NCBI GenBank assembly: GCA_030680405.1
Contig: JAUXVT010000037.1
Span: 1-41,576 of the forward strand
Length of the DNA: 41,576 nucleotides
Reading direction: 5' to 3'
Source of the DNA: Thiobacillus sp.
GTDB lineage: Bacteria > Pseudomonadota > Gammaproteobacteria > Burkholderiales > Thiobacillaceae
Made by a program: the position numbers and the translations under genes. This document shows, piece after piece, positions 31,608 to 41,576 of the stretch. Every line of letters begins with the position of its first letter. Within the stretch, counting starts at the first letter, position 1. The notes below the pieces were generated by a model. The model made no database searches. It saw only the letters and a list, made by a program, of their open reading frames with translations, and was not told the DNA's origin.

Positions 31608-31922
31608 ATGCCGAACATTACAGTTAATGTTGCGCCGGAGTTGCTGCGTCAAGCCAAAGTGTATGCGTCGCAAAACAGCACAACGCTGAGCGATATCGTC
31701 AGGAGAAACCTTGTCGCTTTGACAAGAACAAATCGGTCTACCATTGAGCGATATGCAGATGGCTCGATGTCATCTGCGGAGGGTCAGCGCGAACTAGGGC
31801 TTGATTCCAAGGAACAGTTCTTTGCAAAAGTTTGCGGTTCTGGACAAAGCCTGTACCACCTGGACCGCGCCAAGGCAGACCAACTGGCGACAGAGGCCCT
31901 TATCCTTATCGGAGCACGGTAA
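31608..31922 (+). CDS. Ribbon-helix-helix antitoxin-like protein
   Basis: A 104-residue protein. The N-terminus ITVNVAPELLRQAKVYASQNSTTLSDIVRRNL reads as a ribbon-helix-helix DNA-binding fold. A variable C-terminal tail is the probable toxin-binding part. CGGAGG lies five bases before the ATG. The gene overlaps the PIN-like gene (TAATG), the normal order for antitoxin then toxin. Base composition is visibly lower in GC than in the core genes upstream, suggesting transfer. It may repress its own promoter at the dyad 31564-31581. Confidence 0.75.
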   Translation: MPNITVNVAPELLRQAKVYASQNSTTLSDIVRRNLVALTRTNRSTIERYADGSMSSAEGQRELGLDSKEQFFAKVCGSGQSLYHLDRAKADQLATEALILIGAR

Positions 31923-32581
31923 TGCGCCAGTGCTGCATGCTGATAATGGACGCAACCCCAATTATCTTCCTGGCAAAGCTAGGGAAGCTTGATCTGCTTT
32001 TGGAATTCAAGATTCCCGTATTCATGCCGCGCGAGGTTGAATTTGAGATTGTCGAGAAACAGGCTCGCAAGGAGAGGCGCGAGCTGAATAGTGAGGAAAA
32101 GACGATTCAGGCTTTTCTCGAAAAGCACAAAAAGACAAAGCGGATTACTGTTGTTCGGACAATCGTCTGTAAGGCTGTAGAAGATTCGAGGAAAGCAGAT
32201 CCGACGTACGCATCACATGGCGATGGAGAGGTGGCGGCCAACTCGCTTTTTCTAAATAGAGATAAGTACGGTGTCAGCGGTCCGGCATTGCTGCTGTACG
32301 AAGATGCCGACGTAGAGGTTGTTTTTCGGAGAGATGATGTCCACTTCTTAACGACATACGCCATGTTTGTGGCCATGGAAAAGATTGGACGTCTTAGATC
32401 AGCCGATGACGAGTGGGATAGGCTAAGGAACATTTATCGCCAGCAAAACGAAAACGATCTAGCAAAACATAATGTGGACAGATCGAATCGTGGCGATACA
32501 GAATACCTGCCCAAGGCACACGGCGAAGGGGAAGGTAGTACCTCTGGCACACCATCTCCAAAGACAAGGATTCGCCGTTAA
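31922..32581 (+). CDS. PIN-like toxin, predicted RNase
   Basis: A 219-residue protein with a PIN-type layout. There is an early Asp (MDATPIIFLAKLGKLDLL, Asp10), then Glu in MPREVEFEI. GDGEVAANSL (Asp101, Glu103) and LLYEDADVEV (Glu127, Asp128, Asp130) follow, and HFLTTYAMFVAMEKIG closes the domain. Together these could form the acidic metal site of an RNase toxin. The tail after residue 180 is polar and probably disordered. The Met at residue 6 or 9 is an alternative start. It is AT-richer than the core genome. The spacer 32582-32785 holds no gene I can support. Confidence 0.68.
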   Translation: MRQCCMLIMDATPIIFLAKLGKLDLLLEFKIPVFMPREVEFEIVEKQARKERRELNSEEKTIQAFLEKHKKTKRITVVRTIVCKAVEDSRKADPTYASHGDGEVAANSLFLNRDKYGVSGPALLLYEDADVEVVFRRDDVHFLTTYAMFVAMEKIGRLRSADDEWDRLRNIYRQQNENDLAKHNVDRSNRGDTEYLPKAHGEGEGSTSGTPSPKTRIRR

Positions 32582-32785: not shown

Positions 32786-35700
32786 ATGCGCCTGATCGAC
32801 AACATCAACAGCTTGCTGGGTGAAGACCTCAAAGGCACCCTCAAGCCTGGCTCGAAGCTGAAGATTGCGGCCTCGTGCTTCTCTATCTATGCGTACGTCG
32901 CGCTGAAAAAGGAGCTGGAGAACATCGACTCCCTGGAATTCATCTTCACCTCGCCGACCTTCGTGCCCAACGAGGTGAGCGACAAGATGAAGAAGGAACA
33001 GCGCGAGTTCCATATTCCCAAGACCGAGCGCGAGCGCAGCCTCACCGGCAGCGAGTTCGAGATTCAGTTAAAGAATCAGCTTACCCAGAAGGCCATCGCA
33101 CGGGAGTGCGCCGACTGGATACGGCGCAAGGCCGTCTTCCGTTCCAACCGTGGTCAGGCACCGATGCAGCCCTTTGCCGGGGTTCGGGCTCGGGCCGGCG
33201 ATGAGGCCGGCGACGCCGTCTACATGCCGTTGCAGGGCTTTACCGCAGTCGACCTGGGCTACCAAAAAGGCAATGCGCTTTCGAACATCGTCACTCGATT
33301 CGACGAGCCTTCGCACACCGGTATGTTCCTCAGCCTGTTCGATCAGATATGGAATGACCCAGAAAAACTGGAAGACGTGACCACGCGCCTGTGCGAGCAC
33401 ATCGCCTCGGTCTATCAGGAGAATTCACCAGAGCGCATCTACTTCCTGATGCTGTACAACATCTTCAAGGAATTTCTCGAAGACGTGAATGAGGATGTTC
33501 TGCCCAACGATCGCACCGGCTATCTGGACAGCCTGATCTGGCAGAAGCTGTTCAACTTCCAGCGCGATGCCGCCACGGGCCTGATCAACAAGCTGGAAAC
33601 CTATAACGGCTGCATCCTCGCCGACAGCGTTGGCCTTGGCAAAACCTTCACCGCGCTGGCGGTGATCAAGTATTACGAACTGCGCAACAAGTCGGTTCTG
33701 GTGCTCTGCCCGAAGAAGCTCGCCGACAACTGGCTGAACTACAACCGCAACCTCAAGACCAATCTCTTCGCCAGGGATCGCTTCAACTACGACGTGCTCT
33801 GCCACACCGACCTGAGCCGCACCCGTGGCGAATCACTGGGTATTCCGCTGGATCGCGTCAACTGGGGCAACTACGACCTGGTGGTGATCGACGAGTCGCA
33901 CAACTTCCGCAACAACGACGTCTACAAAGACAAGGAAACCCGCTATCAACGGCTGATGAACCAGGTCATCCGCCAAGGCGTCAAAACCAAGGTGCTGATG
34001 CTCTCGGCGACCCCGGTCAACAACCGCTTCAACGACCTGAAGAACCAGTTGGCGCTGGCCTACGAAGGCGACAGCGACACGCTCAACAACAAGCTGCGCA
34101 CGGAACGTGACATCGACGGCATCTTCCGCCGCGCCCAGGCAGCATTCAATGTCTGGTCCACCCTGCCGCCGGAACAGCGCACCGCCGCCGCAATTCTCGG
34201 CAGCCTGGATTTCGATTTTTTCGAGCTGCTCGACAGCGTCACCATTGCTCGCTCGCGCCGGCACATCGAGACCTTCTACAACACCGCCGACATCGGCAGC
34301 TTTCCCGAGCGGCGCAAACCACAGTCATTTCACTGCCCGCTGACCCACCGTGCCGACGTCATCGGCTTCAATGAAATCTTCCACCGGTTGTCGCAGCTCA
34401 AGCTCGCCGTGTATGCCCCCGTCAGCTACATCCTTTCCAGCCGCCTGAAGAAGTACGAAGCGCTATACGACACCCAGGTGGAGGGTGGCGGCGGCAAGCT
34501 CAAGCAGGCAGACCGCGAAAAGAGCCTGCAAGCGCTGATGACCATCAATCTGCTCAAGCGCCTGGAAAGCTCGGTCGAATCCTTTCGCCTGACGCTGAAA
34601 AGTCTGCAAAAAAGCCACCGCGACGCGCTGCAGAAGATCGCTAACTTCGATCAAACCGGCGCGGCCAGCGCCTTTGCCGATGTCGCCGCAGCCTTTGCCG
34701 ACGCCGAAGCTGATTTCGACGATGACGAATTTCCCTTGCCCGGCGATGCCACCATAGGCAAGAAAATCCAGATCAACCTGGAAGACATGGATCTGCCCTC
34801 CTGGGAGCAGGATCTCCAGGCCGACCTGTTCTTCATCGATGAACTGCTGGCCGAAATGGCCAAGGTCACGCCGAGCGACGACGCCAAGCTGCAACACCTG
34901 AAGACGCAGATCACCAGCAAGCTCACCTCGCCGATCAACCCCGGCAACCGCAAGGTGCTGATCTTCACCGCCTTCGCCGACACCGCCAACTACCTCTACG
35001 ACAACCTGGCCAAGCACCTGCTGCACCACCACAAGGTGCACTGCGCCAAGGTCACCGGCAGCGACGCGCCAAAATCCACCCTGGGCACTATTCCGGGCAG
35101 CCGCCAGAGCTACGACTTCCAGGGCCTGCTCACCCTGTTCTCGCCGCGTTCCAAGGAAAAGGCCGTCATCTACCCGGACGAACCGCGCGAGATCGACATC
35201 CTCATCGGTACCGACTGCATTTCCGAAGGCCAGAACCTGCAAGACTGCGATTACGTCATCAACTACGACATCCACTGGAATCCCGTGCGCATTATTCAGC
35301 GCTTCGGCCGCGTGGATCGTATCGGCTCGCAAAACGCCAGCATCCAGTTGGTCAACTACTGGCCGGACATCAGCCTGGATGAGTACATCAATCTCAAGGA
35401 GCGGGTCGAAAACCGCATGATGATCGCCGACGTCACCGCCACCGGCGACGACAATGTCCTCAACGCCCAGGCCAACGACGTGGCCTACCGCAAGGAACAG
35501 TTGCGCCGCTTGCAGGACGAAGTGATCGAAATGGAAGACATCAAGACCGGCGTCTCCATTACCGACCTCGGCCTCAACGATTTCCGCATGGACCTGCTTA
35601 ACTACATCAAGACCAATGGCGAGTTGAGCCATGTCCCCAACGGCATGCATGCCGTGGTACCGGCCCAGCCCGAGGCGGGCCTGTTGCCCGGCGTGATCTT

Positions 35701-36106
35701 CACCCTGCGCAGTCGCGCATCTGGCAACCGCGCCGGTGCGCAACACCAGCAGCAAAATCGCCTTTACCCCTATTCCCTGATCTACATCGGCAACGACGGC
35801 CGCATCATCAGCGACCACACCGAAGCCAAGCGTCTGCTCGACCTCGCTCGTAGCGCCTGCAAGGGCCACAGCCAGCCGCTGCGCGAGGCCTACGAGCCGT
35901 TCAACCAGTCCACCGACGACGGGCGCAACATGCAGGCCTACTCCAGCCTGCTCGACCAAGCCATCCGCACCATGATCGACCGCAAGGAAGAGCGGGACAT
36001 CGACAGCCTGTTCAGCGGCGGCAAGACCACGGCGTTGGTGGACAGCATCGCCGGCCTGGACGACTTTGAGCTGATTACCTTCATCGTCATTCAGGGCGCG
36101 GCATGA
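32786..36106 (+). CDS. SNF2-type helicase with extended N-terminal domain (defence-associated)
   Basis: A 1106-residue helicase. The N-terminal 240 residues (RLIDNINSLLGEDLK...KIAASCFSIYAY) resemble the phospholipase-D-like front domains of this helicase group, but I see no intact HxK motif. The SF2 core follows: Walker A GLGKT (Lys286), DESH (369-372), LSATPVNNRF. A long helical insert comes next, then TDCISEGQNLQDCDYVINYD and QRFGRVDRIGS (from Gln838). It overlaps the DUF4391 gene as ATGA. It has core-like high GC, unlike the flanking toxin-antitoxin and OLD-like genes. It lacks a clear Shine-Dalgarno; the start matches the family N-terminus. The role is probably ATP-driven DNA translocation in a restriction-like system; this is inferred. 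Confidence 0.88.
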   Translation: MRLIDNINSLLGEDLKGTLKPGSKLKIAASCFSIYAYVALKKELENIDSLEFIFTSPTFVPNEVSDKMKKEQREFHIPKTERERSLTGSEFEIQLKNQLTQKAIARECADWIRRKAVFRSNRGQAPMQPFAGVRARAGDEAGDAVYMPLQGFTAVDLGYQKGNALSNIVTRFDEPSHTGMFLSLFDQIWNDPEKLEDVTTRLCEHIASVYQENSPERIYFLMLYNIFKEFLEDVNEDVLPNDRTGYLDSLIWQKLFNFQRDAATGLINKLETYNGCILADSVGLGKTFTALAVIKYYELRNKSVLVLCPKKLADNWLNYNRNLKTNLFARDRFNYDVLCHTDLSRTRGESLGIPLDRVNWGNYDLVVIDESHNFRNNDVYKDKETRYQRLMNQVIRQGVKTKVLMLSATPVNNRFNDLKNQLALAYEGDSDTLNNKLRTERDIDGIFRRAQAAFNVWSTLPPEQRTAAAILGSLDFDFFELLDSVTIARSRRHIETFYNTADIGSFPERRKPQSFHCPLTHRADVIGFNEIFHRLSQLKLAVYAPVSYILSSRLKKYEALYDTQVEGGGGKLKQADREKSLQALMTINLLKRLESSVESFRLTLKSLQKSHRDALQKIANFDQTGAASAFADVAAAFADAEADFDDDEFPLPGDATIGKKIQINLEDMDLPSWEQDLQADLFFIDELLAEMAKVTPSDDAKLQHLKTQITSKLTSPINPGNRKVLIFTAFADTANYLYDNLAKHLLHHHKVHCAKVTGSDAPKSTLGTIPGSRQSYDFQGLLTLFSPRSKEKAVIYPDEPREIDILIGTDCISEGQNLQDCDYVINYDIHWNPVRIIQRFGRVDRIGSQNASIQLVNYWPDISLDEYINLKERVENRMMIADVTATGDDNVLNAQANDVAYRKEQLRRLQDEVIEMEDIKTGVSITDLGLNDFRMDLLNYIKTNGELSHVPNGMHAVVPAQPEAGLLPGVIFTLRSRASGNRAGAQHQQQNRLYPYSLIYIGNDGRIISDHTEAKRLLDLARSACKGHSQPLREAYEPFNQSTDDGRNMQAYSSLLDQAIRTMIDRKEERDIDSLFSGGKTTALVDSIAGLDDFELITFIVIQGAA

Positions 36107-36780
36107 CGCAGGCCATAACCCCCGCGCTGTTCAATTTTCCGCCGCAGGCCAAAGTGGGCCGCGTGTTGCCGAAAAGCAAGATCTACCAGCACGGCCGGGT
36201 CAGCGCTGCCTTGCGCGAGCGCTTTGTCAAACAAGTGGAGCAGATCACCTGGCAATACAAGCTGGCGCCGGAAACCATCAACCTGCCGGCGCGCTCGGGC
36301 GTCGCTGAAATCGAAATCTTCGATATCGCGCTGAAAACCGATGCGCTGGATGAAGACGTGCTGCGCGCCATCGACCGCGCCATTCCGCTGCCTATCGTCT
36401 TCCAGTTGCAGCACGGGCAACGTACCCGCATGGTGGCCGCTCATAAACGGCCCAGCGCAGCCGAAGCCGGCAAGTGGGTGATCGATGGCTACTTTGGCGG
36501 CACATGGCAGCCGGCTACTGCCGAGCGCCGACCGCTACCCATCGCGCTCGACCTGCACAACCTCTACGAACAACTGCTGCGCAGCCTGCTGCCGCAAGCG
36601 GCAAGGCCGGGTGAAGGCCTCCCCGAACAAGTGGAACGGCTGACCCGGCTGCGCAGCCGGCAGAACGACTACAACAAGTTGGAAGCGCGCCTGCACAAGG
36701 AAATACAGTTCAACCGCAAGGTGGCGCTCAACGCCGAATTGCGCGAAGTCAAAACCGAAATCGACCGACTGGGCGCGTAA
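36103..36780 (+). CDS. DUF4391 protein, partner of the SNF2 helicase
   Basis: A 225-residue protein of the DUF4391 family. The N-terminal part (ALFNFPPQAKVGRVLPKSKIYQHG) precedes a mixed domain with IEIFDIALKT and PLPIVFQLQHG. The C-terminal 50 residues form a charged coiled-coil-like helix (RLHKEIQFNRKVALNAELREV). Function is unknown. The ATGA overlap with the helicase and the downstream Mod-type methyltransferase form a recurrent set as I remember it, which suggests a structural or regulatory subunit. No nuclease motif is visible. Confidence 0.85.
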   Translation: MTQAITPALFNFPPQAKVGRVLPKSKIYQHGRVSAALRERFVKQVEQITWQYKLAPETINLPARSGVAEIEIFDIALKTDALDEDVLRAIDRAIPLPIVFQLQHGQRTRMVAAHKRPSAAEAGKWVIDGYFGGTWQPATAERRPLPIALDLHNLYEQLLRSLLPQAARPGEGLPEQVERLTRLRSRQNDYNKLEARLHKEIQFNRKVALNAELREVKTEIDRLGA

Positions 36781-36807
36781 AGAGAAATACCTGAGCCCTC
36801 GGCATGC

Positions 36808-36836
36808 TTGCCATATACCGATACCGCGCCGATAAT
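36808..36836 (+). promoter_or_regulatory. Promoter for the VapBC-type pair
   Basis: TTGCCA (36808-36813) and GATAAT (36831-36836) are separated by 17 bases, 36 bases before the antitoxin ATG. It implies transcription independent of the helicase operon. Confidence 0.55.
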
Positions 36837-36871
36837 TTGGCTTACTTTTAGTCTTACCGTTGGAGATTCCC

Positions 36872-37147
36872 ATGACTACTGCTACCACCACGCTTTCCAG
36901 CAAGGGACAAGTCGTGATCCCGAAAGAAATTCGGGACGAACTGCATTGGGACGCTGGAACGCAGATTGCCCTGGTTTCCAGCGCGTCCGGCGTCACGCTC
37001 AAAGCCGTGCCGAAGAAAACCGGCCGCAAGTTTGCGGACCTGATCGGCCTGTTAAAACATGAGGGAGCGCCGCTGTCCATCGAAGAACTCTGCAAACCGG
37101 TTGATTACAGTGTGGACGGGGAAGCCGCCGGGGGCCACCGCCGATGA
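36872..37147 (+). CDS. vapB: AbrB/SpoVT-type antitoxin (VapB-like)
   Basis: A 91-residue protein with an N-terminal swapped-hairpin AbrB domain (TTLSSKGQVVIPKEIRDELHW...GTQIALV). The tail (GLLKHEGAPLSIEELCKPV) is of the kind that blocks PIN toxins. The ATG at 36872 has GGAG six bases upstream; an upstream TTG at 36860 would put this site inside the gene. It overlaps the PIN gene as ATGA. Confidence 0.88.
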   Translation: MTTATTTLSSKGQVVIPKEIRDELHWDAGTQIALVSSASGVTLKAVPKKTGRKFADLIGLLKHEGAPLSIEELCKPVDYSVDGEAAGGHRR

Positions 37148-37539
37148 TTGCGCTGGACACCAACATGCTGGTGCGCGCCCTGGTCGCCGATCATCCCGAC
37201 CAGGTTGCCGTGGTTCGCCAACTGATTGCGGGCGACACCGTATTCATTTCGCGCACCGTGTTGCTGGAAACCGAATGGGTGCTGCGAGCGCGCTACAAGA
37301 GAATGCCAGCCGAACTGCTGAACTTTTTCAGGGCGCTGCTCGAAACCGACGACACCGTGATCGAGGCCGCCGAAGAAGTCCGCAATGCGCTCGACTGGTA
37401 CGAGCACGGCGCGGATTTCGCCGACGCGCTGCACCTCGCCGCCTGCGGCAGCGCCGTCATGCACACCTTCGACCGCAACTTCTGCGTGGCGGCGCGCGCT
37501 GCCGGAATCGCGCCCGAGGTGCGGATATGGGAGGTTTGA
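37144..37539 (+). CDS. vapC: PIN-domain toxin (VapC-like)
   Basis: A 131-residue PIN ribonuclease. The acidic site is complete: Asp5 in ALDTNMLVRAL, Glu42/Glu44 in LLETEWVL, Asp91/Asp94 in ADFADALHLA and Asp110 in TFDRNF. VapC toxins cleave tRNA or rRNA when the antitoxin is lost. The pair lies between the DUF4391 gene and the OLD-like gene and shares the high GC of the helicase. It may stabilise the island or act as an abortive arm; this is inferred. Confidence 0.9.
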   Translation: MIALDTNMLVRALVADHPDQVAVVRQLIAGDTVFISRTVLLETEWVLRARYKRMPAELLNFFRALLETDDTVIEAAEEVRNALDWYEHGADFADALHLAACGSAVMHTFDRNFCVAARAAGIAPEVRIWEV

Positions 37540-37591
37540 ATCGATGATCGCGCGCGATACACGTAGGTACCAATAGTCAAAGGGATCTCCA

Positions 37592-39046
37592 ATGTCCGAC
37601 ATAGCAATAAAGCTAGCGTCAAAATACGCCATCAAGAATCGCTACGCGAACTTTGGGCCGTGTCTTCGTCAGATACAGGTTCATGGGTTTCGCGGAATAC
37701 GGGGTATGACCGTAGAACTAGAGTTCCCTATTACTGCAATTTCGGGATTGAATGGTGCCGGCAAAAGCACTCTAGGACAGTTGGCAATTTGCGCGTATCG
37801 AAAGCCAACCACATCGATCAACTACAAGCGGCAGTATGTCAAAGACTTCTTTCCAGTTTCGCCAGCCGATCCAAAGCCAATTTCCGATGATGCGAAATCA
37901 ATTTACACCTTTGAGAGCGACGATTACAAAAGGCCGCAGGAAGTCACAATTTCCCGAGCGAACTCTGCGTGGTCTGGGTATAAGCGGCAACCTGAACGTC
38001 ATTGCTATTACGTTGGATTTACCGTCTACATCCCAAAGGTTGAGCGGCGTGACCTAAGCGTCTACGGTGGTGCTGATCTTCAATTTACGGAAAAGCGAGA
38101 GATTGACCCCCAAGTCATAAAGAAGATGGCGAGAATCATTGGCCACAGGTACGACGAAGTGTCCTTTCAGGGGGTATCACACAAGGCCAAGGAATCGGAA
38201 ATCGGGATTGCCTCTCGCCTCGGGTATTCGTACTCCGAAAATAATATGGGGTTTGGGGAAGGCCGTGTCTTATATACCGTTGATCGACTTGAGACGTCCC
38301 CTGAGCAAAGCCTGTTCATTCTTGAAGAGCCGGAAACCTCGCTACATGAGAATGCGCAGCATGAGTTTGCAAAATACCTTCTAGACGTTTGCAATCGGCG
38401 TCATCACCAAATCATTCTCTCTACCCATTCAAGCGTAATTCTTAAGGCATTACCCCCGGAAGCACGAAAGCTGATCGTTCGTGATCAGGATGGAGTGGAG
38501 ATAAAAAATCGAATTTCCGCTAATCAAGTTAGATCCATTCTGTCTGGTGGCCATGCTCGACCTCTCGATATATGCGTTGAGGATCCCTTTGCTCGCGTCC
38601 TTCTTACCGAAGTAATTCGTTCTAAGAAGAAAGAACTGCTTAAGGTGATCGCCATTCATGACATTGGCGATAAGGATGCAGTTCGTGAGGCAGTCTGGGT
38701 GCTACGGAAGACCGGAAAGAATGCAATAGCAGTGAGGGATGCTGATGTCGGCGCAGCCCCCAAGGATGGGCTTCTATCATTCCCTGGAAATCGACCGCCA
38801 GAAGTTGAGGTTTTTACCAATGGTGCTGTGAAAAAACTCATCAAGAAAAAATACGACATTGACGTGAATTGGATACTTGACCGAGACGATGTCAAAGATC
38901 ATCACAAAATCGCGTTCTGTATCGCCACCGAAGCCGAGGCAGACGAAGAGGTTGTGCGCGTGCTTGCGATTGAAAAATATATTGAAGAAATCACCAACGA
39001 ATTCGATGCTCTCATCTCCCAAATCAGCGCAGCAGTCGGCGCCTAA
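37592..39046 (+). CDS. OLD-like ATPase with compact TOPRIM domain
   Basis: A 484-residue protein. The ATPase head shows Walker A GLNGAGKST (Lys58), a signature-like NNMGFGEGR, Walker B LFILEEPETSLH (Glu245, Glu246) and ILSTHSS. A short TOPRIM-like part follows, with ICVEDPFARVLL (Glu330), HDIGDKDAV and VRDADVG (Asp383, Asp385). This is the OLD-family plan (ABC-type ATPase fused to TOPRIM nuclease), smaller than GajA. No UvrD-like partner follows, so it is not a Gabija operon here. AAGGGA lies six bases before the ATG. It is the AT-richest long gene in the window, which suggests separate acquisition. Confidence 0.78.
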   Translation: MSDIAIKLASKYAIKNRYANFGPCLRQIQVHGFRGIRGMTVELEFPITAISGLNGAGKSTLGQLAICAYRKPTTSINYKRQYVKDFFPVSPADPKPISDDAKSIYTFESDDYKRPQEVTISRANSAWSGYKRQPERHCYYVGFTVYIPKVERRDLSVYGGADLQFTEKREIDPQVIKKMARIIGHRYDEVSFQGVSHKAKESEIGIASRLGYSYSENNMGFGEGRVLYTVDRLETSPEQSLFILEEPETSLHENAQHEFAKYLLDVCNRRHHQIILSTHSSVILKALPPEARKLIVRDQDGVEIKNRISANQVRSILSGGHARPLDICVEDPFARVLLTEVIRSKKKELLKVIAIHDIGDKDAVREAVWVLRKTGKNAIAVRDADVGAAPKDGLLSFPGNRPPEVEVFTNGAVKKLIKKKYDIDVNWILDRDDVKDHHKIAFCIATEAEADEEVVRVLAIEKYIEEITNEFDALISQISAAVGA

Positions 39047-39297
39047 TCCGGTGATACATGGGTCGCTGCGCGATAGAGTCGCGCCGCCCCTGACCTTGAA
39101 TCGTTGGCATCGATTGATCCAGCCGCGAATTGCGGCCAAGGGCGGGCGAAATCCTGATCCACCGCGAGAAACCGCCGTCTCGCCAGCGCCGACTTTCCGC
39201 AGGCTGGGTCGGTGCAGCGTCACGCAACAGGCCACTTTCGTAGGCGTTCCCAAGCAAGCGTTCTAGCCTCAGCAATCAGGAAACACAGGAAAGCCCC
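39047..39297. other. Gene-free spacer with a dispersed motif copy upstream of the methyltransferase
   Basis: This spacer contains no gene I can support. It includes a dispersed motif copy at 39173-39198 and a ribosome site (AGGAAAG) just before the methyltransferase start. Its GC is higher than in the OLD-like gene, so the composition change happens at the OLD stop codon. Confidence 0.5.
39173..39198 (+). repeat. Dispersed 26-bp motif, copy 5 (right of the OLD-like gene)
   Basis: It matches the copy at 31351-31376 at 22 of 26 positions in the same orientation. Copies 4 and 5 bracket the stretch with both toxin-antitoxin pairs, the helicase, DUF4391 and the OLD-like gene. Confidence 0.6.
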
Positions 39298-41226
39298 ATG
39301 GACAAGCTGAAGATGCACTCCCCCGACCTGACAGAAGCCAACATCGCCAAGCTGGCCGAGCTGTTCCCCAACTGCGTCACCGAAGCCAAGGATGCCAAGG
39401 GTGAACCAAGGAAGGTCATCGACTTCGACCTGCTGCGGCAGGAACTGGCATCGAGCATCGTCGAGGGGCCGCAGGAGCGCTACCAGCTCAACTGGCCGGG
39501 CAAGCGCGAGGCGCTGCTGACGGCCAATGCACCGATTGCCAGGACGCTGCGCCCTTGCCGGGAAGAGAGCGTGGATTTCGACAGCACGCAAAACCTGTTC
39601 ATCGAAGGCGACAACCTGGATGCGCTCAAGCTGTTGCAGGAGACCTACCTGAACAAGGTCAAGCTGATTTACATCGATCCGCCGTACAACACGGGGAATG
39701 ATTTCATTTACGCGGATGATTTCGCCGAGGATGCCGAAACCTATTTCGGGCGATCCGCGCAGAAGGATGAGTCCGGTAATCGCTTAATCGCAAACACTGA
39801 GGCCAATGGACGGTTCCACTCCGATTGGGTAAGCATGATCTACCCTCGGCTGAAACTAGCCAGGAATCTGCTGCGAGACGATGGCGTCATCTTCATTTCG
39901 ATTGGCGACGAAGAAATTCACAACCTGAGAAGAGCTGCCGATGAGGTATTCGGCGAAATGAATTATCGGGGCACCATCGCTAGAGCGACTGGCACGCGAA
40001 TGGGCAGTGGCAACACAAGGATCTCCAGCGAAATTGATTTCGTTGTCATCTATGCCAAATCCGACTTGTACGAGTTTCAAAGCCTTCCGATGGGTGATGA
40101 AGATGTAGCCATCTATGATCAGCAAGACGAAAGAGGGCGATACCTGACTCGCTCTCTAAGGCGAACTGGGGGCGAGAACAGGCGAGAAGATAGACCTACC
40201 ATGTATTACCCCATAACGACCCCGGGTGGTCAAGCAATCTACCCGATTGCCCCCGAGGGCTGGGAAAGTCGATGGGTATGCGGTAAAGATAAATATGAAG
40301 AACTGCTACGAGCTGGACTCATCGAATGGAAGCAGGTTCAGAAGGAAGGTGTAAGCCGCTGGCAGGTATACCAGAAGCATTACCTCGGCGAAGGACTTAA
40401 ATATTCGTCAAACCTTTGGGTCGGTGTCGAGGGCAATAAGAAAGCCACTAGAGACTTAAATCAAATATTCGACGGTCGGAAGGTGTTCGATCACCCAAAG
40501 CCTATAGAAGTGCTGCAAAGAATATTGATGATCTCGACCAGTGCCAAGGAGGAATGCGTCATCATGGATTTCTTCTCAGGATCAGGCACCACAGCTCACG
40601 CGGTCATCAAGCAAAACTGCGACGACAATGGAAAAAGGAAATTCATAGCTGTTCAGTTACCCGAAGCCTTGTCATCAGACAATAGGACACAGCAAGTTGC
40701 GTTGGAGTTTTGCGATGCACTCGGCAAACCTCGAACCATTGCTGAAATTTGCAAGGAGCGCATCCGCCGCGCTGGCAAAAAAATTGGATCAGAAAATGCC
40801 ATCACTGCCCCGAATCTAGACACCGGCTTCCGCGTCCTCAAAATCGACAGCTCCAACATGAAAGAGGTGTACTACACCCCGGATGCCGTCACGCAGGAAG
40901 CGCTCCCCGGCCTGGTCGACAACATCCGCGCAGACCGCACTGCCGAAGACCTGCTGTTCCAGGTGCTGCTCGACTGGGGCGTCGATCTGGCACTGCCGAT
41001 CAGCCAGCAAACCATCGCCGGCAAGACGGTGTTCTTCGTCGACGGCAATGCCCTGGCCGCCTGCTTCGAGACCGGCATCGACGAGGACTTCGTCAAGCAG
41101 CTCGCTGCGCACAAGCCGTTGCGCGCGGTGTTCCGCGATGCTGGCTTCGTCAGCGACAGCGTGAAGATCAATGTCGAGCAGGTGTTCAAGCTGCTCTCGC
41201 CTGCTACTGAAATAAAGACGCTGTGA
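39298..41226 (+). CDS. Type III (Mod-type) DNA adenine methyltransferase with mosaic centre
   Basis: A 642-residue beta-class N6-adenine methyltransferase, the size of EcoP15I Mod (644). The order is as expected: the N-terminal NLFIEGDNLDALKLLQ, catalytic motif IV DPPYNTG (Asp127), a long target-recognition region, then SAM motif I DFFSGSGTTAHAV (Asp424) and ERIRRAGKK. By eye, roughly 39730-40850 is much lower in GC than both ends of the gene, so the recognition region looks exchanged. It should set the sequence specificity of the island and protect host DNA. The cognate Res subunit is not in the window. Confidence 0.92.
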   Translation: MDKLKMHSPDLTEANIAKLAELFPNCVTEAKDAKGEPRKVIDFDLLRQELASSIVEGPQERYQLNWPGKREALLTANAPIARTLRPCREESVDFDSTQNLFIEGDNLDALKLLQETYLNKVKLIYIDPPYNTGNDFIYADDFAEDAETYFGRSAQKDESGNRLIANTEANGRFHSDWVSMIYPRLKLARNLLRDDGVIFISIGDEEIHNLRRAADEVFGEMNYRGTIARATGTRMGSGNTRISSEIDFVVIYAKSDLYEFQSLPMGDEDVAIYDQQDERGRYLTRSLRRTGGENRREDRPTMYYPITTPGGQAIYPIAPEGWESRWVCGKDKYEELLRAGLIEWKQVQKEGVSRWQVYQKHYLGEGLKYSSNLWVGVEGNKKATRDLNQIFDGRKVFDHPKPIEVLQRILMISTSAKEECVIMDFFSGSGTTAHAVIKQNCDDNGKRKFIAVQLPEALSSDNRTQQVALEFCDALGKPRTIAEICKERIRRAGKKIGSENAITAPNLDTGFRVLKIDSSNMKEVYYTPDAVTQEALPGLVDNIRADRTAEDLLFQVLLDWGVDLALPISQQTIAGKTVFFVDGNALAACFETGIDEDFVKQLAAHKPLRAVFRDAGFVSDSVKINVEQVFKLLSPATEIKTL

Positions 41227-41576
41227 GCCTGCCCATGGACAGTACTGCCATGCTGGCGCTCGTGGCGTCGCTGATCGAGCGCTGGGAAAACGAGGTGGTG
41301 GAATTCAAGCGCGCTGGCGACGGCTATTCCACCGACGACATCGGCAAATACTTTTCGGCCCTGGCCAACGAGGCCAACTTGCGCGACCACGACCGGGCCT
41401 GGCTGGTGTTCGGAGTGGACAACAAGACGCGCAAAGTGGTCGGCACCGACTACCGGCCCGAGCCTGCCCGCCTGCAAAGCCTCAAGATGCAGATGGCCGA
41501 GGCGACCGAGCCGAGCGTCACCCTGCGCAACATCCACGAACTGGCACACCCGGACGGACGGGTGTTGCTGCTGGAA
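41223..41576 (+). CDS. Schlafen AlbA_2-domain protein, N-terminal part (truncated by window edge)
   Basis: About 118 residues are present before the edge. LIERWENEVVEFKRAGDGYSTDDIGKYFSALANEANLR is followed by AWLVFGVDNKTRKVVGTDYR. This is the Schlafen AlbA_2 domain, a divergent nucleic-acid-binding or nuclease-like fold often annotated as putative DNA-binding. GTG 41223 overlaps the methyltransferase stop (GTGA); ATG 41235 is an alternative start. Coupling to the methyltransferase indicates a shared system. Domains after residue 118 are not visible. Confidence 0.82.
   Translation, partial: MSLPMDSTAMLALVASLIERWENEVVEFKRAGDGYSTDDIGKYFSALANEANLRDHDRAWLVFGVDNKTRKVVGTDYRPEPARLQSLKMQMAEATEPSVTLRNIHELAHPDGRVLLLE

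Follow-up and report, generated by a model that had tools for sequence, protein, structure and literature searches.

The entire contig JAUXVT010000037.1 of Thiobacillus sp., 41,576 nt long and hereafter the window, carries most of a widespread, mobile four-gene form of type III restriction–modification, which is present in many bacteria and one archaeon and in which genes for an SNF2-family ATPase and a DUF4391 protein accompany those for the methyltransferase Mod and the ATPase-endonuclease Res. The cassette occupies positions 32786–41576, with every gene on the + strand in the order SNF2, DUF4391, AbrB-type antitoxin, PIN, OLD-like ATPase, Mod, and the start of an AlbA_2 protein. Its core genes encode an SNF2-family ATPase with a degenerate N-terminal PLD/HKD-like domain (32786–36106; 1106 amino acids (aa); Pfam Helicase_C 1.9e-14, SNF2-rel_dom 8.8e-12), a DUF4391 protein (36103–36780; 225 aa; PF14335 1.6e-60), and a type III Mod N6-adenine methyltransferase (39298–41226; 642 aa; PADLOC MTase_III 2.1e-225, N6_N4_Mtase 9.9e-30), and the fourth core gene, Res, probably lies beyond the contig edge. 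Subject to that Res, the locus is a variant of type III restriction–modification. We propose, with a probability of roughly one half, that SNF2 is an added motor and DUF4391 an adaptor, and that the two help Mod–Res act on invading DNA.

The conserved unit elsewhere is SNF2–DUF4391–Mod–Res. We scanned one genome per species for DUF4391 relatives with a seven-protein alignment and kept the best 80 of 422 loci (labeled L below) with up to 10 kb on each side, a biased set made up of the closest relatives. DUF4391 is immediately preceded by SNF2 in 80/80 loci, and in 68/80 the two genes overlap by 4 nt, just as they do in the window (36103–36106). Mod is found in 76/80 loci and Res in 68/80, with all four genes on the same strand in 68/68. 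Res is missing from 12 loci: 11 of these stop no more than 3.4 kb to the right of DUF4391, and the twelfth (L042) looks decayed, both its SNF2 and its Mod being broken. The nearest relative (L022; SNF2 95% identical, AlbA_2 89%) has the order SNF2–DUF4391–Mod–AlbA_2–Res. An original prediction made from the letters of the window had proposed a type III-derived composite whose families occur together in other genomes, possibly with a Res past the right edge; the recurrence is borne out by these loci, and their Res counts make the missing subunit probable. A Res relative was not found in the rest of the assembly, which is only 87% complete, so its absence there means little. That prediction also placed the AlbA_2 protein within the set, but AlbA_2 occurs in 12/80 loci, fragments counted, and is not core.

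It is very improbable that these four genes form a mere frequent neighborhood within defense islands and share no function. The slots between them do hold many unrelated defense genes, but gene order and strand are fixed, the short SNF2–DUF4391 overlap recurs in most loci, the set persists in many phyla and in an archaeon, and SNF2, DUF4391, and Res diverge together (see below).

The four-gene set extends across phyla and onto plasmids. DUF4391 occurs in 23/398 genomes drawn from the phylum, the window's own counted; four of the DUF4391 contigs in this sample end before Res is possible, and Res is on the same contig in 18/19 others. In the exception, L156, DUF4391 sits at the contig edge with a zeta-toxin-like ATP-binding open reading frame (ORF) behind it, and neither Mod nor Res is present on the 10.5-kb contig. 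Among plasmid records, 43 have a DUF4391 relative and 103 an SNF2 relative (E ≤ 1e-60; most of these contexts were left unopened), and tblastn found relatives of all four genes in 20/20 DUF4391 plasmid regions opened. Plasmid hosts include Methanomethylovorans (an archaeon), Persicobacter (Bacteroidota), Mycolicibacterium, Lactobacillales, and Listeria innocua, and the phyla of these regions include Actinomycetota and Bacillota. According to PMC2932693, a Listeria plasmid type III system is related to LlaFI. A near-identical SNF2–DUF4391 pair is present in 10/5426 complete E. coli genomes, 9 times on plasmids, and insertion sequences interrupt the four-gene set in L162, L021, and L221.

Mod–Res can persist without SNF2–DUF4391, and the reverse was not seen in any intact locus. 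Mod–Res pairs that have several kb of sequence upstream but no SNF2–DUF4391, in genomes that contain no DUF4391, are found in L165, L169, L171, and L176 and, on a distant branch, in L178, L180, and L182. Two more rows scored as alone (L163 and L168) also come from genomes without DUF4391 and are less sure, since their contigs end ~0.6 and 0.4 kb upstream of Mod. No intact SNF2–DUF4391 pair without Mod–Res was seen among the loci examined, those lacking Res being decayed or at a contig edge. In a Res tree of 53 rows of at least 850 aa (clade I represented by 23 selected rows, and row L167 having a broken Mod), nearly all Res of the window's clade are linked to SNF2–DUF4391, the exceptions being L165 and contig-edge rows, and a second clade mixes linked and unlinked Res. 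We also observed two tandem Mod-like genes (~628 aa) before a single Res at L168:4278–8160, on a contig without SNF2–DUF4391.

This distribution bears on the possibility, which we regard as quite unlikely, that SNF2–DUF4391 is a RapA/Mot1-like safety remodeler that removes Mod–Res from host DNA, for instance where replication has just passed or damage has occurred, and so limits self-cutting. SNF2 is similar to RapA by profile and by comparison with solved chains, and presumably to Mot1 as well; it is highly conserved (mean pairwise identity 75.6% across 67 loci), which would suit a protein whose self partners stay constant; and the window's clade almost always keeps the pair. However, the Mod–Res relatives that lack the pair (L165, L169, L171, L176, and others) indicate that it is not generally needed for safety, and two papers describe type III enzymes as two-gene machines (PMC12707154, which so describes EcoP15, and PMC3874151).

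SNF2, DUF4391, and Res diverge together, and the recognition region of Mod is freely swapped. Over 67 loci, pairwise distances correlate between SNF2 and DUF4391 (r = 0.89), SNF2 and Res (0.85), DUF4391 and Res (0.85), and Res and the Mod core (0.69), but are essentially uncorrelated when SNF2, DUF4391, or Res is compared with the Mod recognition region (r ~0.05). This target-recognition region (~residues 215–505; 39940–40812, + strand) has a mean identity of 32.6%, vs. 70.5% for the rest of Mod, and is exchanged between near-identical relatives: the Mod proteins of the window and L022 are nearly the same at their two ends but differ greatly in the middle. Because distances in this region are unrelated to those of the other three proteins, SNF2–DUF4391 is unlikely to recognize the target sequence itself; specificity would instead come via Mod, or the pair would act without sequence preference.

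Both type III subunits otherwise look conventional. The window Mod has the expected features of a type III Mod and matches solved Mod 6k0w (1.4e-65) and the EcoP15I Mod (4zcf), and a DPPY motif is present in 93/93 Mods of at least 560 aa. The Res proteins of relatives match the EcoP15I Res profile (7.6e-109), ResIII and RE_endonuc domains were found in both Res proteins scanned, and PD...ExK residues are present in 81/81 Res of at least 900 aa. Judged by sequence, the relatives' Res is an ordinary, complete type III ATPase-endonuclease. These motif alignments were restricted by length (SNF2 ≥1000 aa, 99/113; Res ≥900 aa, 81/95; Mod ≥560 aa, 93/109), and some rows are near-duplicates (L138/L019, L136/L020, and L198/L193). 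The resemblance to EcoP15I and EcoP1I is that the window Mod and the relatives' Res match the EcoP15I subunits with intact catalytic motifs and that the recognition region is carried within Mod; the difference is the extra SNF2 and DUF4391 genes, which stand directly upstream in all 80 related loci. Novelty rests on the SNF2–DUF4391 pair only, the relatives' Res being of the ordinary kind.

The SNF2 protein has kept the motifs of a motor and lacks those of a nuclease. The window SNF2 matches the PADLOC model C3a139, labeled "HKD+Snf2" (2.3e-125 over residues 184–1102), and is 38% identical over residues 21–1105, nearly full length, to the SNF2 of L154, in which the HKD nuclease motif is intact; the C3a139 label may derive from work that surveyed the accessory genes of type III CRISPR systems. 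ATPase motifs GLGKT and DESH are kept in 99/99 aligned SNF2 proteins, 5 of which miss the exact motif VI pattern. In contrast, the HKD motif is absent in 111/111 DUF4391-linked copies, the window's included, as called in two alignments (98 copies by eye on a printed alignment and 13 by pattern). Alignment with L154 places the missing motif at ~residues 126–158 of the window protein (33161–33259, + strand). Two SNF2 relatives beside Eco57I-type methylases (L154 and L220) both have a complete HKD motif and match a PLD domain. The helicase N-terminal domain, offered in the original prediction as a possible effector, is accordingly an unlikely one.

Most simply, a type III system would have acquired a nuclease-helicase and retained only its motor, the incoming nuclease being dispensable because Res already cuts. 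A single loss of HKD in the DUF4391-linked SNF2 proteins is compatible with the SNF2 tree, built without DrmD-like rows, which puts them on one side with support of 64 and long branches, but is not shown by it. SNF2 proteins comprise a group containing the window (>2000 bits, 10 genomes) and a second group (1019–1174 bits, 10 genomes), both of which carry DUF4391 and, contig permitting, Mod and Res. The two HKD-intact loci differ in having no DUF4391, Mod, or Res relative in the stretch fetched, and tblastn at both found no DUF4391 relative. There the SNF2 helicase adjoins an Eco57I/type IIG-like methylase (L154:7954–15237 and L220:3853–11300), and these two genes may form a separate restriction system; the methylase of L154 reads as two overlapping ORFs and may be interrupted. 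Separately, relatives of WYL-domain regulators lie directly upstream of SNF2 in L017, L090, L091, L101, L136, and L146, which suggests transcriptional control of the operon.

DUF4391 is the partner for which we propose an adaptor role. Its AlphaFold2 model (predicted local distance difference test score (pLDDT) of 91.6) comprises a small alpha+beta globular part and a long C-terminal helical hairpin, whose tip is invariant at E200, Q202, F203, and N204 in alignment columns over 78 sequences. In the literature searched, one paper (PMC7784981) mentions DUF4391, in a table on a different subject. Two of 50,697 phage records (MT836075.1 and MT836122.1) encode a DUF4391 relative with 33% and 30% identity, respectively; both are 13-kb unannotated "Bacteriophage sp." sequences from human fecal samples.

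In the mechanism that we favor, the recognition region of Mod would set the target, Mod would mark one strand of host DNA, and unmarked incoming DNA would be cut by Mod–Res as in EcoP15I. SNF2 and DUF4391 would form a complex in which SNF2, having given up its nuclease function, would act purely as an ATP-driven double-stranded-DNA motor, and DUF4391 would dock it on the Mod–Res enzyme through the tip of the helical hairpin. The motor would then strip proteins from the invading DNA, or travel along it, so that Res could cut faster or at unfavorably placed sites, and slot genes (here AbrB/PIN, the OLD-like ATPase, and Schlafen/AlbA_2) may serve as interchangeable back-up effectors. A stronger version, which we hold tentatively and at somewhat less than even odds, is that SNF2–DUF4391–Mod–Res forms a class of restriction enzyme in its own right, with its parts functionally integrated: a type III enzyme powered by a true double-stranded-DNA translocase that came from a restriction system with an HKD nuclease, lost that nuclease, and was joined on through DUF4391 as a dedicated adaptor, so that the enzyme could work where Mod–Res alone is inefficient.

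Several observations weigh against this mechanism. The window itself shows no Res, as the contig stops at 41576; L064 shows 1.9 kb to the right of DUF4391 without Mod; and the plasmid region L191 keeps Res as a 130-aa remnant. The nuclease ancestry of the window SNF2 is drawn from its alignment to L154, no PLD model matched this protein in the Pfam scan, and the HKD-intact relatives found are two, set apart from the DUF4391-linked copies by a weakly supported branch (64). The structure model of SNF2 is poor (pLDDT 56) and unusable, and a fold search with DUF4391 gave no credible match, which leaves the adaptor role without structural precedent. Contact among SNF2, DUF4391, Mod, and Res is something we infer, and correlated distances can reflect joint inheritance without contact. 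Finally, the standalone Mod–Res relatives imply that a type III enzyme does not need the motor in order to persist.

Another possibility is that SNF2–DUF4391 is a second, non-cutting arm that senses Mod methylation and, independently of Res, unwinds or blocks phage DNA lacking the mark, in the manner of BREX (bacteriophage exclusion) or DISARM (defense island system associated with restriction–modification). We consider this unlikely. The SNF2 profile does resemble the motors of DISARM (DrmD), BREX (BrxH), and Dpd, the HKD-intact relatives adjoin a methylase with no Res relative nearby in the fetched stretch, and DrmD-like SNF2 proteins also occur beside type III Mod–Res (L173 and L177). Yet Res is kept in 68/80 loci, with 11 of the other 12 cut short, and SNF2 distances track those of Res nearly as closely as those of DUF4391.

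Membership in DISARM, in BREX, or in a BREX-related system was rejected for the stretch up to the contig end. The locus shares with DISARM an SNF2 motor in one operon with a methylase, but the window SNF2 scores 151.9 bits against a cut-off of 610 for NCBIfam DrmD NF038317 and 102.9 against 950 for NF038318. Among the matches listed for nine window proteins (scans covering the cassette up to the contig end at 41576) there was no DrmB or DrmC, DrmA appeared as a weak match of the SNF2 motor, PglZ, BrxC, and PglX/BrxX were absent, and BrxH was a weak match of SNF2. As described in PMC12839542, the BREX-related "Type-2 BR" combines an N6 methylase with an SNF2-type helicase bearing an N-terminal HKD domain, and BREX loci have Schlafen, OLD, and PIN back-up effectors. 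The present locus has a comparable methylase, helicase, and set of candidate back-up effectors, but Type-2 BR, in that description, relies on DUF499 and DUF3780 and has retained the HKD nuclease, which is its effector; neither DUF matched any of the window proteins scanned with Pfam, and the DUF4391-linked SNF2 proteins all lack the active N-terminal HKD nuclease. Elsewhere, a DrmD-like SNF2 helicase (705 and 658 bits to the PADLOC DrmD model) lies directly upstream of type III Mod–Res in L173:6632–14961 and L177:6144–13998, with no DUF4391 relative; type III systems appear to have recruited an SNF2 motor here a second time, independently.

Because PADLOC has no model that matches DUF4391 and scores SNF2 as "HKD+Snf2", with Mod and Res scored as type III, annotation would probably label the set as plain type III and overlook half of its genes. 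The original prediction gave no named, characterized system of this composition, and we found no description of the SNF2–DUF4391–Mod–Res set in the literature searched, which leaves out most subscription papers and preprints. Loss of the HKD motif and the one-way dependence, in which Mod–Res occurs without the module but not the reverse, raise the question of what a type III nuclease gains from the motor.

Slots between DUF4391 and Res hold diverse cargo and offer a catalog of candidate back-up effectors. They contain 86 ORFs in 33 clusters, and scans of representatives from 20/33 clusters gave a Pfam match for 17. Families include YhcG nuclease, RhuM, OLD ATPase-TOPRIM, DUF2130, Bro-N, UvrD-like, Fic, SIR2, HerA, ORF6N, zeta-like kinase, AAA, DUF4276, PLD, GmrSD, and Abi_2, as well as Schlafen/AlbA_2, while 32/68 loci having Mod and Res show no gap of at least 400 bp in either slot. 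SIR2-like and HerA genes lie between DUF4391 and Mod in L094, L079, and L049 (clusters of three loci each), and an AAA ATPase with DUF4276 (PADLOC HEC-01A/B; AriA models match the ATPase) lies between Mod and Res at L018:17383–19177.

The accessory genes of the window likewise appear, by comparison with these loci, to be optional and interchangeable cargo. The original prediction had correctly named SNF2, DUF4391, Mod, and AlbA_2, with their families, common direction, and overlaps, but had overlooked the genes between DUF4391 and Mod. These are an AbrB/MazE-type antitoxin (36860–37147, +; PF04014 2.5e-8, TIGR01439 1.9e-10), a PIN-domain (VapC-like) protein that overlaps it by 4 nt (37144–37539, +; PF01850 4.7e-12), and an OLD-like ABC ATPase (37592–39046, +; AAA_15 1.2e-18, PADLOC HEC-04 3.6e-48). 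The last matches OLD-family 6p74 over residues 241–304 (5.5e-8) and may have a TOPRIM part, with VED at residue 329 and DAD at 383; no Pfam TOPRIM model matched. The Schlafen/AlbA_2 gene (41223–41576, +) shares 4 nt with Mod (41223–41226) and is cut by the contig end after 118 aa, which suffice for a SLFN_AlbA_2 domain match (PF04326 1.6e-11); the fragment is 89% identical over 114 aa to the 555-aa protein of L022.

To the left of the cassette, 5/10 scanned ORFs match ordinary chromosomal families (UvrB, an aminotransferase, a type II/IV secretion ATPase, a small-domain methyltransferase, and a luciferase-like protein), and the other five are without a match. Directly upstream of SNF2 are a small DUF6364-like ORF (31608–31922) and a PIN-like ORF (~31904–32581) with weak PDC-S70 and PIN-TPR-GreABC matches, which are perhaps a second toxin–antitoxin pair.

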